Notes under the pieces: generated by a model
Told to the model about the DNA's origin: nothing
Database searches by the model: none
What the model saw: only the letters and a program-made list of their open reading frames with translations
Position numbers and translations under genes: made by a program
Virus record (IMG/VR): IMGVR_UViG_3300020202_000071
Coordinates: 1 to 64,000 of that record
Direction: 5' to 3' (one strand)
From: a virus
DNA length: 64,000 nt
Shown: positions 51,350 to 54,350 of the stretch, piece by piece
Position numbering within the stretch: position 1 is the first letter of the stretch
Layout: each line of letters opens with the position of its first letter

Positions 51350-51786
51350 CCGTCCGCGAGTGGTTCCGCGAGCTGCGGCGATCGCAGCCCCCGTCCGTCG
51401 AACTCCGCGAGTTCTGCGAGTCCCTTGTACGGGACGATGTCGATCGCCACGCGCGTGAAGCGCTCTTCCTCCAGGTGCTCATCGCCGCTGGATTGATGGA
51501 CGATCCGCCTGGCGCGTTGACGTGGCACCGACTGCTCGCCGGCAGCAGCATCATGACCGGCGCCTTGCAGCACGGCCGCGATGGCGAACCGCGCCTCGTG
51601 CTGCCGCCGCGGCCGCGCCTAGTGCCCGATGCGGACTACCCGCTCGTCGGGGTGTGGGTTACGGACCCTGATGAGCCGACGCTGCGTGACTTCGCCTCGG
51701 CAGCCGACTACGGCGTGCGCGATGCCTACGTGGCCTACTTGCACTTTCGTCCAGGAGTTTCGGGAGATCCGACCCCGGATTCGTGA
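51346..51786 (+). CDS. Hypothetical protein
   Basis: 146 residues from ATG 51346. A helical first half (VREWFRELRRSQPPSVELRE, EALFLQVLIAAGLMDD) then a beta part with PLVGVWVTDPDEP. It ends where the terminase starts (GTGA). Family unknown. Confidence 0.6.
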   Translation: MTVREWFRELRRSQPPSVELREFCESLVRDDVDRHAREALFLQVLIAAGLMDDPPGALTWHRLLAGSSIMTGALQHGRDGEPRLVLPPRPRLVPDADYPLVGVWVTDPDEPTLRDFASAADYGVRDAYVAYLHFRPGVSGDPTPDS

Positions 51787-54350
51787 GCGGCAAGCGCGCA
51801 AAGCACGCGCGTCGGCTCGCCGCCCTCCGCAAAGGCTTCCTCTGGGGCTATCTCCACCCCTCTGGCTCGTGCCTGCACGAGCCGCCCTGTACGCCCTCTC
51901 GTGAACGCTGTCAGCCCCAACCCAAACAGGCGATCGCCCACGCGTCGACCGCAGAGGTCCTGTTCTACGGAGGCGCCGTCGGTGGAGGAAAAAGCGAATT
52001 CGGCCTGATCGAGGCGATCACGATCTGCCTCGAACACAAGAACGTCAAGGTCGCGTTCTTCCGCCGCAAGCTGCGCGAGCTTGAGCAGGAAATCATCGGG
52101 CGCTTCCTGCTGCTGGTGCCCGATTACATCGCCACCTACAACGCCAGTACGCACGTCGCGAAGTTCTGGCAGGGCTCCGAGCTCTGGTTCTGCCACTGCC
52201 AGCACGAGAAGGACGTCTACACCTACCAGTCGGCGCAGTGGGTGGCGCTCTTCATCGACGAGAGCACGCACTTCACCGAGTTCATCGTCCGGTATCTGAT
52301 CACGCGCGTCCGCTCGGCACGTATCGGGATGCGGAAGCGCATCCGCCTGATGTCCAACCCGGGCGGCGTCGGTCACGGCTTTCACAAACGCTGGTTTATC
52401 CGTCCGGTGCCCGACGAGCTCGGCACGCGTCCCGCGCCGGCGCCGTTTGCGATCTGGCGTCCGCTGCCGCTGCCGAACGACCCGACCCCACCGGAGCATG
52501 TGCCGACGCGCCAGTTCATCCCGGCCTGGTTCCACGACAACGTGGCGCTCGCGAGCGCGGACCCCGCCTATCTCGCCAAGGTCTGGGCGCTCGGGGGTGA
52601 CAAGGCGAAGCAGCTCGCCGAGGGTGATTGGGACGCCAACGACTCGATGATTGTCGGCTCGACGTGGCGTGAGAAGCGGCTCGTGCAAGCGAGCGATCAC
52701 GCGCTCCTGGCCCTCGGGCTGAAGGTCGGCCAGATCATCCCCTGGCACATCATCCCGAACCCGCAGTGGAAGCCACCGAAGGGGGCGACGATCTGGGGGA
52801 GCGTCGATTACGGCTACGGCGCCCCGTGGGCGTTCCACCTACACGCGGGCTTACCGGGCGGCCATATCCGCACGTTCTTCGAGTTCTACATGCCGAAGAA
52901 GCGTGACGTCGAGCAGGCGCGCATGATCGCCAAAGTGCTGCGCGAGAACCACTGGCAACCCGAGTGGATCGTGATGGATCCGTCGATGTGGAACTCACGC
53001 GCCGAACAGGGGCTCGCGAAGTCGATCGCCGAAGTCTACGCCGACGAGATCCAGTCGATCTGCCAGCTGCGCAAGGGTGCCGCCGGTCGATCAGCCCGCG
53101 TGTCGCGCCCGCAACGGTGGCTTGCCGCGTTGCAGCCGGCCGCCGATGGTCTGCCGAATTGGACCGTCACGACTGCCTGTCCGGATCTCATTCGCACCGT
53201 ACCCGACGTGCCCTGGGATCCGGAGGACCCGGAGGTCGAGGACGATTCGAGCGAGAACCACTGCATCGCCGCCGGCACCCTCATCGACACGAGTGAAGGT
53301 CCGAAGCCGATCGAGCAGATCATCGCCGGCGATCTCGTCCTGACGCGCAAAGGCTACCGCCCGGTGCTACGGGCCTGGCTCACGAATCCTGATGCCGAAG
53401 TCCTTGAGGTGACATGTTCGGACGGTCGCGCGTTGCGAGCGACGGCGAATCATCGCGTCTTTGAAAAGAATCAAGGATTCATTGAATTTGGAGAATTAGC
53501 CGAAGGCTTCATACTGCATAATCACTCAGAGATTTCGCGATGGTTGAAGGTCCGATCGTTATTTCAGACACCGCGCAGGAATGGCGTGAAGTGGTCTATT
53601 ACAAGTGCGGTCGCTACTTTGCGCGCCGCGGCTACGGTCGGTTGCACCGGCGCGTCTGGCGCGATGTCTACGGGCGCATCCCCTACGGCTGTCACATCCA
53701 CCACAAGGACAACAACCCGGCGAACAACCATCCGTCGAATCTCGAACTCCTCCATCGCAAGCAGCATTTGTCGATGCACAGCCGCAATCCGACGGAGCGG
53801 CAGCGCGCCGCGCGCCGCGAAAACCTGCGATACGCCTCGGAGATCCGCATGGCAAGACCGAGCATCATCGTGGCGTGCTCGCATTGCGGCGAGCCTGCAG
53901 CAGTGGCTGAAGGGCAACTACGCGTTCGCAACTACTGCTCACGGCAGTGCCGGTGGAACGCCTTCGATAAACGCCAACGCGATGCGCAGCCCGCGCGTGA
54001 GGTCATCTGCGCCGGCTGTGGGAAAGCTTTCCAGACCAAACGGCGCGGCAAACGCTTCTGCGGGGACGTCGCGTGTTATTACCGTGCGGCCAAGCGGGCG
54101 AACAGCGGTGTACGACCTGACGGTCGCTGACGCGCACGAGTTCTTCGCCAACGGCATCCTCGTTCACAACTGCTACGAAGGGGTCGGGCGCTTCTTTGAG
54201 GCGCGGCCGTTCGTGCCGGCGCCGGCCCCGTTCGATCCGTATGAGGGTCTCGACCCGATTTCGCGTGCGCATCACGAGGCGCTCGAGAAGAAACATCGCA
54301 GCCGGGTCGGCGGGGCGATGGGGATCGGCAACCTGGCGAATCAGGGGTGA
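51783..54350 (+). CDS. terL: Terminase large subunit interrupted by an intein
   Basis: 855 codons including a 303-residue intein; the joined protein would be 552 residues. ATPase: Walker A FYGGAVGGGKSEF at about 59-72, Walker B WVALFIDEST near 156, coupling motif SNPGG near 195. Nuclease (RNase H-like): GSVDYGYGAPW near 341, IVMDP near 397 and, after the intein, CYEGVGRF where the third acidic motif (HxxDAxRY-like) should be. It cuts concatemers and pumps DNA into proheads. The intein is between SENH and CYEG, next to the active site. Confidence 0.9.
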   Translation: MSGKRAKHARRLAALRKGFLWGYLHPSGSCLHEPPCTPSRERCQPQPKQAIAHASTAEVLFYGGAVGGGKSEFGLIEAITICLEHKNVKVAFFRRKLRELEQEIIGRFLLLVPDYIATYNASTHVAKFWQGSELWFCHCQHEKDVYTYQSAQWVALFIDESTHFTEFIVRYLITRVRSARIGMRKRIRLMSNPGGVGHGFHKRWFIRPVPDELGTRPAPAPFAIWRPLPLPNDPTPPEHVPTRQFIPAWFHDNVALASADPAYLAKVWALGGDKAKQLAEGDWDANDSMIVGSTWREKRLVQASDHALLALGLKVGQIIPWHIIPNPQWKPPKGATIWGSVDYGYGAPWAFHLHAGLPGGHIRTFFEFYMPKKRDVEQARMIAKVLRENHWQPEWIVMDPSMWNSRAEQGLAKSIAEVYADEIQSICQLRKGAAGRSARVSRPQRWLAALQPAADGLPNWTVTTACPDLIRTVPDVPWDPEDPEVEDDSSENHCIAAGTLIDTSEGPKPIEQIIAGDLVLTRKGYRPVLRAWLTNPDAEVLEVTCSDGRALRATANHRVFEKNQGFIEFGELAEGFILHNHSEISRWLKVRSLFQTPRRNGVKWSITSAVATLRAAATVGCTGASGAMSTGASPTAVTSTTRTTTRRTTIRRISNSSIASSICRCTAAIRRSGSAPRAAKTCDTPRRSAWQDRASSWRARIAASLQQWLKGNYAFATTAHGSAGGTPSINANAMRSPRVRSSAPAVGKLSRPNGAANASAGTSRVITVRPSGRTAVYDLTVADAHEFFANGILVHNCYEGVGRFFEARPFVPAPAPFDPYEGLDPISRAHHEALEKKHRSRVGGAMGIGNLANQG
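53262..54170 (+). mobile_element. Intein in the terminase
   Basis: Cys1 at 53262 begins block A (CIAAGTLIDTSEGPKPIEQI); block B is ALRATANHRVF; the C-terminal blocks F/G are AVYDLTVADAHEFFANGILV then HN followed by Cys+1 (54171). All residues for self-splicing are present. The middle third, in the terminase frame, is low-complexity and has no endonuclease motif; that stretch encodes an HNH gene in another frame. Local base composition around 53460-53560 is AT-richer than its surroundings, a sign of transfer. Confidence 0.85.
53540..54130 (+). CDS. HNH homing endonuclease nested out of frame in the intein
   Basis: 196 residues from ATG 53540, frame +2 relative to the terminase. A full HNH motif, CHIHHKDNNPANNHPSNLEL, is at about residues 51-70, followed by LHRKQHLSMH. 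The C-terminal half has two zinc-ribbon-like units (CSHCGEPAAV ... CSRQC; CAGCGKAFQ ... CGDVACYY). The frame has stops upstream, so the gene is free-standing inside the intein. No good ribosome binding site is seen, so expression may depend on re-initiation. Confidence 0.8.
   Translation: MVEGPIVISDTAQEWREVVYYKCGRYFARRGYGRLHRRVWRDVYGRIPYGCHIHHKDNNPANNHPSNLELLHRKQHLSMHSRNPTERQRAARRENLRYASEIRMARPSIIVACSHCGEPAAVAEGQLRVRNYCSRQCRWNAFDKRQRDAQPAREVICAGCGKAFQTKRRGKRFCGDVACYYRAAKRANSGVRPDGR

Follow-up and report, generated by a model that had tools for sequence, protein, structure and literature searches.

How can an intein spread if its homing endonuclease is written in another reading frame? On the usual view, an intein turns mobile when it acquires an endonuclease domain that is fused to it in frame. 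The locus described here has a different layout. It lies in a 64,000-nucleotide stretch of viral DNA (positions 1 to 64,000 of IMG/VR virus record IMGVR_UViG_3300020202_000071). We call this stretch the window; it is part of a 65,753-base record of an uncultivated virus. The gene for the terminase large subunit (TerL) in the window contains a complete intein, and this intein contains a gene for an HNH endonuclease in a different frame. With a probability of roughly 0.83, we read the locus as a mobile TerL intein whose homing endonuclease is a complete, separately translated overlapping gene in the -1 frame.

A complete intein with an HNH gene nested out of frame

The TerL open reading frame (ORF) is stop-free across 855 codons, insert included (Table 1). 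The insert matches Pfam Intein_splicing (1.3e-11) as well as the C-terminal and N-terminal intein profiles TIGR01443 (6.8e-08) and TIGR01445 (5e-4). Cys1, the TxxH of block B, the penultimate His, the terminal Asn and the +1 Cys are all present. Across the 38 inteins that we compared (see below) Thr, His and Asn are invariant, and Cys1 and the +1 Cys are nearly so. Three TerL proteins that are 58-68% identical and carry no intein (L010, L012, L013) show the empty site: they read SENH/AYE, the window reads SENH/C...N/CYE. Hence, the insertion is precise and the +1 residue has changed, as an intein requires.

An AlphaFold2 model of the intein frame reaches a predicted local distance difference test score (pLDDT) of about 98 for residues 1-92 and 270-304, and mostly 40-60 for the linker between them. 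Its top structural match is the gp41-1 intein 6qaz (target template modelling score 0.87, Foldseek). The intein frame is thus predicted to encode a Hint fold whose linker is disordered.

The nested protein matches Pfam HNH_3 at 4e-13 and the PHROG for HNH endonucleases at 1e-24. Among 44 aligned proteins His54, His55, Asp57, Asn67 and His76 are invariant. In the first zinc-finger-like motif C113 is invariant, and C116, C133 and C137 are nearly invariant. The AlphaFold2 model of the HNH protein is confident (mean pLDDT 92.4), and its top structural match, a weak one, is I-HmuI (E 0.07, probability 0.89). Codon usage in the overlap, as log-odds per codon relative to the phage, is 0.00 in the HNH frame versus -0.86 in the intein frame. 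The N-terminal splicing block scores 0.03 in the intein frame, which is phage-like. In the window the catalytic residues, the zinc ligands and the coding signal of the HNH gene are intact.

The initial annotation of this DNA had described complete N- and C-terminal splicing blocks in one TerL frame, a separate complete HNH gene in frame '+2' (the intein frame -1) and a TerL frame that stays open through the out-of-frame region. The Pfam and TIGR domains together with the empty site confirm the blocks, the HNH_3 match and the ATG start confirm the gene, and the length of the ORF confirms the open frame.

Table 1. Coordinates of the TerL gene, its intein and the nested HNH gene in the window
Feature	Position	Strand	Details
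TerL ORF including intein	51783..54350	+	855 amino acids, GTG start; PHROG terminase large subunit 1.8e-34; Pfam Terminase_6N
Complete intein	53262..54170	+	303 codons, Cys1-Asn303, then Cys; ORF residues Cys494-Asn796, Cys797 next
N-terminal splicing block	53262..53518	+	Cys1; TxxH at 53442-53453; own hidden Markov model (HMM) 5e-31; pLDDT ~98
Intein-frame linker (HNH gene read out of frame)	53519..54083	+	stop-free; pLDDT 40-60 over most; codon log-odds -0.86
Nested HNH endonuclease gene	53540..54130	+	196 amino acids, ATG start; TGA stop 54128-54130 within C-terminal splicing block; frame = intein frame -1
HNH_3 catalytic motif, HNH residues 35-76	53642..53767	+	Pfam HNH_3
First zinc-finger-like motif CxxC...CxxxC (C113, C116, C133, C137)	53876..53950	+	from sequence
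Second zinc-finger-like motif (C157, C160, C174, C179)	54008..54076	+	from sequence; weak double-zinc-ribbon-like matches, below cut-off
C-terminal splicing block	54084..54170	+	ends His-Asn, Cys at 54171-54173; own HMM 9e-18; TIGR01443

The layout recurs in other phages

We gathered relatives of the HNH protein from viral contigs, species genomes and phage records regardless of their frame, and classed them with profiles of the intein blocks and of the HNH protein. The survey comprises 140 rows in 60 clusters (60% protein identity), with the window counted twice. In 84 of these rows, the window again included twice, a single ORF holds both intein blocks and continues across an HNH gene that is in another frame; as relatives were ranked by the similarity of their HNH to that of the window, such proportions are not estimates for all TerL inteins. 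The HNH gene sits at offset -1, as in the window, in 73 nested rows and at the other offset in 11. Beyond the window there are 82 nested loci in 37 clusters (34 in the -1 frame and three in the +1 frame), which makes 38 clusters with the window.

The remaining rows include one HNH in frame, in a dCTP deaminase and not in TerL, 22 split or broken frames and 27 rows in which no intein was detected. This survey of HNH relatives contains no TerL intein whose HNH is in frame. We also started from the intein: three N-terminal blocks were compared to phage records with tblastn, and 15 records were examined. This small sample holds nested, split and mini forms in TerL, and no in-frame HNH of the window's HNH family. 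A scan with a single protein, the HNH of Acinetobacter phage Highwayman, yielded only one additional locus.

Nested copies occur in four GenBank phage records (L014, which is Tetrasphaera phage TJE1, L015, L019 and L022). Besides TJE1, the GenBank examples include Rhodobacteraceae phage LS06-2018-MD07, Highwayman and a fecal phage scaffold. Further nested copies lie in genome records of Bacteroidota, Gemmatimonadota, Pseudomonadota and Patescibacteria, among others. All sampled exteins are TerL-like: 33 of the 38 match the main TerL PHROG, and matches to further TerL PHROGs are common. In 37 of the 38 clusters the HNH stop codon falls within the C-terminal splicing block.

The initial annotation had suggested a comparison with other phage terminase inteins, and the out-of-frame layout recurs in 37 other clusters. 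It had also read the linker as an alternative-frame translation of the endonuclease, that is, an overlapping-gene form of intein; the 82 other loci and a codon usage that favours the HNH frame bear this out. Its recurrence in dozens of distantly related phages marks the out-of-frame layout as genuine and as maintained by selection, an arrangement from which a mobile intein would be built.

Among the 38 TerL inteins (a set that includes L074 338-3640), one also matches Pfam LAGLIDADG_3 and one matches Hom_end.

Selection on both reading frames

To obtain the number of stop codons expected in the other frames, we shuffled the codons of each HNH gene synonymously. Over the 38 nested clusters the intein frame contains 0 stops, compared to 107 expected. 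The third frame contains 602, compared to 607 expected. Since 'nested' is partly defined by an open frame, we added broken copies with the same offset to the test. With these included, the frame is open in 39 of the 46 cluster-category groups, where chance predicts 4.4 (P ~5e-60, a value that overstates independence because the clusters share ancestry). Chance as the origin of the open frame is therefore rejected for the whole set. Free-standing HNH relatives provide a clean control: their +1 frame has about 2.8 stops per 100 codons and is open in none of seven, compared to 0.0 stops in the nested copies. The intein frame is maintained stop-free beyond chance.

In the +1 partner frame of HNH coding sequence, stops are about one third as frequent as in the +2 partner frame. 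Most clusters would then sit at the -1 offset because the partner frame there has the fewest stops and is the cheapest to keep open.

The nested HNH frame is under protein-level selection. In pooled close pairs at offset -1, which are not independent of each other, we count 4667, 3620 and 8151 substitutions at HNH codon positions one to three. For the pair L084/L087 the counts are 3, 1 and 23; its HNH proteins are 98% identical and its linkers 86%. The linker diverges faster than the HNH protein in essentially every close pair. Together with the third-position bias this means that the linker seems to be constrained mainly to lack stops. The L001 group shows no third-position bias, as substitutions are nearly equal at all three codon positions. 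This group may be decaying or doubly constrained.

Translation of the HNH gene

In 36 of the 38 clusters, a start codon is present close to where the HNH begins. In the HNH frame ATG reaches 4.1% near the start versus 0.7% inside the gene, a 5.5-fold enrichment. A Shine-Dalgarno (SD)-like match of 4 bases or more stands ahead of 54% of HNH starts versus 24% of control starts. A search for a sigma-70-like promoter within the insert of the window found none. Internal initiation is our best reading of how the HNH protein would be translated. Leaderless or structure-driven initiation is possible too, by analogy to what has been proposed for Mycobacterium phage ShiLan.

Proposed mechanism and origin

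In the mechanism that we propose, the element is a mobile intein that sits in the conserved nuclease motif of TerL. Ribosomes would translate the TerL frame through the entire insert. The two splicing blocks would form a Hint domain and excise, with the disordered linker, the HNH gene read out of frame, as a spacer between them. Other ribosomes would initiate at the ATG at 53540 and produce a free HNH protein with its own start and stop. This protein would cut intein-less TerL genes, into which the whole insert would then be copied. As to homing, what is seen is that the insert is distributed patchily and that empty sites exist.

The element probably originated when a TerL mini-intein captured an adjacent free-standing HNH homing gene out of frame. 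After the capture, a frame that is poor in stops would have been kept open by selection. All the forms involved exist. The same HNH family is found free-standing directly downstream of intein-less TerL genes (L021, L023, L039, L056, L085), and mini-inteins without an HNH gene are found in TerL (L144, L145, Mic1). Three-ORF forms, with the HNH gene between an N-terminal and a C-terminal half, occur in Vibrio phages, Lactobacillus phage CL2, Brochothrix phage BL3 and many contigs. We infer that a capture by mini-inteins, with nested and split forms as its outcomes, fits this distribution.

Three-ORF forms have left traces in existing annotations. TerL of CL2 (L147, KR905067; ORFs 455-1951, 1955-2587 and 2487-2771) is annotated to 1954; next come the HNH gene and then an ORF that bears no annotation and holds the C-terminal block. 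Judged from these ORFs, CL2 TerL is probably a split intein that depends on trans-splicing. In Vibrio phages 1.245.O and 1.238.A (L016-L018), the annotation divides TerL into two parts and calls the second a 'hedgehog/hint domain protein'; an unannotated HNH gene lies between them. In BL3 (L148, HM144386) gp2 and gp3 (709-2298, 2311-2604) hold the intein halves and an HNH remnant overlaps their junction, an arrangement that is possibly a stage of decay. In the split forms L061 (3491-3498) and L034 (3588) the C-half ORF begins with an ATG that overlaps the HNH stop codon, which resembles translational coupling.

Alternative explanations

The displaced frame could be an artefact. Two compensating sequencing or assembly indels, the alternative offered by the initial annotation, would move an in-frame HNH domain out of frame, and a single uncultivated contig could in principle hold such errors. 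Yet 82 other loci, assembled independently and with four GenBank phage records among them, carry an out-of-frame HNH at the same or the other offset, which excludes compensating frameshifts. The in-frame TerL counterpart is missing from the survey, and an HNH stop codon inside the splicing block is impossible for an in-frame domain. We give this explanation practically no chance. Nor do we see much more than a negligible chance that the insert is removed as RNA, by a group I or group II intron with an HNH ORF, and that its likeness to an intein misleads us. HNH ORFs are indeed frequent in phage group I introns, but no Rfam family reaches its gathering threshold within the window, the host frame is selectively kept open, and the intein blocks are complete, with catalytic residues and a predicted Hint fold.

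Two further alternatives accept the intein and dispute how its endonuclease is made or whether it still works. A -1 programmed ribosomal frameshift would produce a fusion of N-intein and HNH without internal initiation. Most known programmed shifts go to -1, and 34 of 37 nested cluster representatives have their HNH gene there. But the stop density (about one third in the partner frame) accounts for this preference, and three clusters have the opposite offset. Moreover, an in-frame slippery heptamer of the form X_XXY_YYZ lies within the usable interval in only one of 35 clusters, and ATG is enriched in the HNH frame where the domain starts. We consider frameshifting very unlikely. It is also unlikely that the HNH gene is a decaying passenger of a fixed and immobile intein. 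Homing endonucleases commonly decay once they are fixed, the L001 group lacks codon-position bias and BL3 retains only a remnant. Against this stand the intact HNH gene of the window and the third-position bias in most close pairs.

Several points weigh against our reading of a mobile intein with a separately translated HNH gene, the shared ancestry of the clusters among them. For the window copy alone chance is not rejected: the sequence is GC-rich, only 0.85 stops are expected and 37% of synonymous shuffles are open (P 0.37). The SD-like match at the HNH start of the window is weak (3 bases), and in one nested cluster (L116) none of ATG, GTG and TTG occurs close to the start of the HNH domain. 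A tree of 64 HNH proteins is poorly resolved; it requires several state changes, and gains cannot be ordered on it. Finally, we infer splicing, HNH expression, cutting and homing from conserved anatomy.

Relation to known systems

No account of an intact intein whose nested endonuclease is out of frame turned up in our literature search; a preprint by Gosselin, Arsenault and Gogarten was outside the reach of that search. The title of that preprint, on actinobacteriophage inteins, announces a 'non-canonical architecture'. It is cited for overlapping reading frames by Arsenault, Gosselin and Gogarten (2025; PMC11855218). Quite possibly it contains an earlier description of out-of-frame intein endonucleases, and priority is uncertain.

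Arsenault, Gosselin and Gogarten (PMC11855218) themselves describe the ShiLan domain, an out-of-frame HNH inserted in a phage methylase with an open host frame. They found no splicing element and predict that the insert remains in the methylase protein. Hence, the novelty assumed in the initial annotation may hold for the intact intein with its nested endonuclease, but not for an HNH hidden out of frame while the host frame stays open, which was published in 2025 without an intein. On the ShiLan sequence we found the HNH gene at the same relative offset as in the window, the host frame -1. This gene (L159 8510-9100, JN020143) weakly matches the profile of the window's HNH family (~4e-08). Free-standing HNH relatives beside uninvaded genes are a further likeness. 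In contrast to the window, where TerL carries intein blocks, the host gene in ShiLan is a DNA methylase without a splicing element.

Split inteins such as gp41-1 and NrdJ-1, reportedly described as 'fractured genes' by Dassa et al. in 2009, are said to carry a free endonuclease gene between their halves. As in the window, the endonuclease is a separate gene associated with an intein, and gp41-1 is the very intein that our model matches best. Split three-ORF relatives of TerL even carry the same HNH family as the window. However, the halves of a split intein lie on separate ORFs, whereas the window has a single continuous 855-codon TerL ORF and thus one continuous chain overlapped by the HNH gene.

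In canonical large inteins the endonuclease domain shares the intein frame. The dCTP deaminase intein of CL131, reported to self-excise in Escherichia coli (PMC6293099), combines a Hint splicing domain with an HNH_3 nuclease, as the window does. Its HNH is in the intein frame (L020), whereas that of the window is in frame -1. The nested protein has an HNH_3 core and zinc-finger-like modules for DNA binding in common with I-HmuI and free-standing HNH homing endonucleases. The I-HmuI gene, however, lies in a group I intron, whereas the window gene is nested in an intein.

Implications for the evolution of mobile inteins

We see an even chance that the locus represents a large class of mobile inteins, not yet described, that resides in TerL of bacterial and archaeal phages. 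Their endonuclease would be a complete overlapping gene that has a start and a stop of its own and lies in either of two alternative frames. If this is true, then mini-inteins, adjacent free-standing HNH genes and split three-ORF inteins would be stages in gaining or separating an endonuclease that never passes through an in-frame fusion. An overlapping gene requires neither fusion nor co-folding. It only needs a stop-free partner frame, which is cheap in HNH coding sequence.

The layout would also explain records in which TerL carries the annotation of a truncated gene and an HNH gene or hint fragment lies alongside, and it would supply many overlapping genes that are under selection. At a single TerL site one HNH family occurs in free-standing, nested and split form, which would make the origin of mobile inteins testable.
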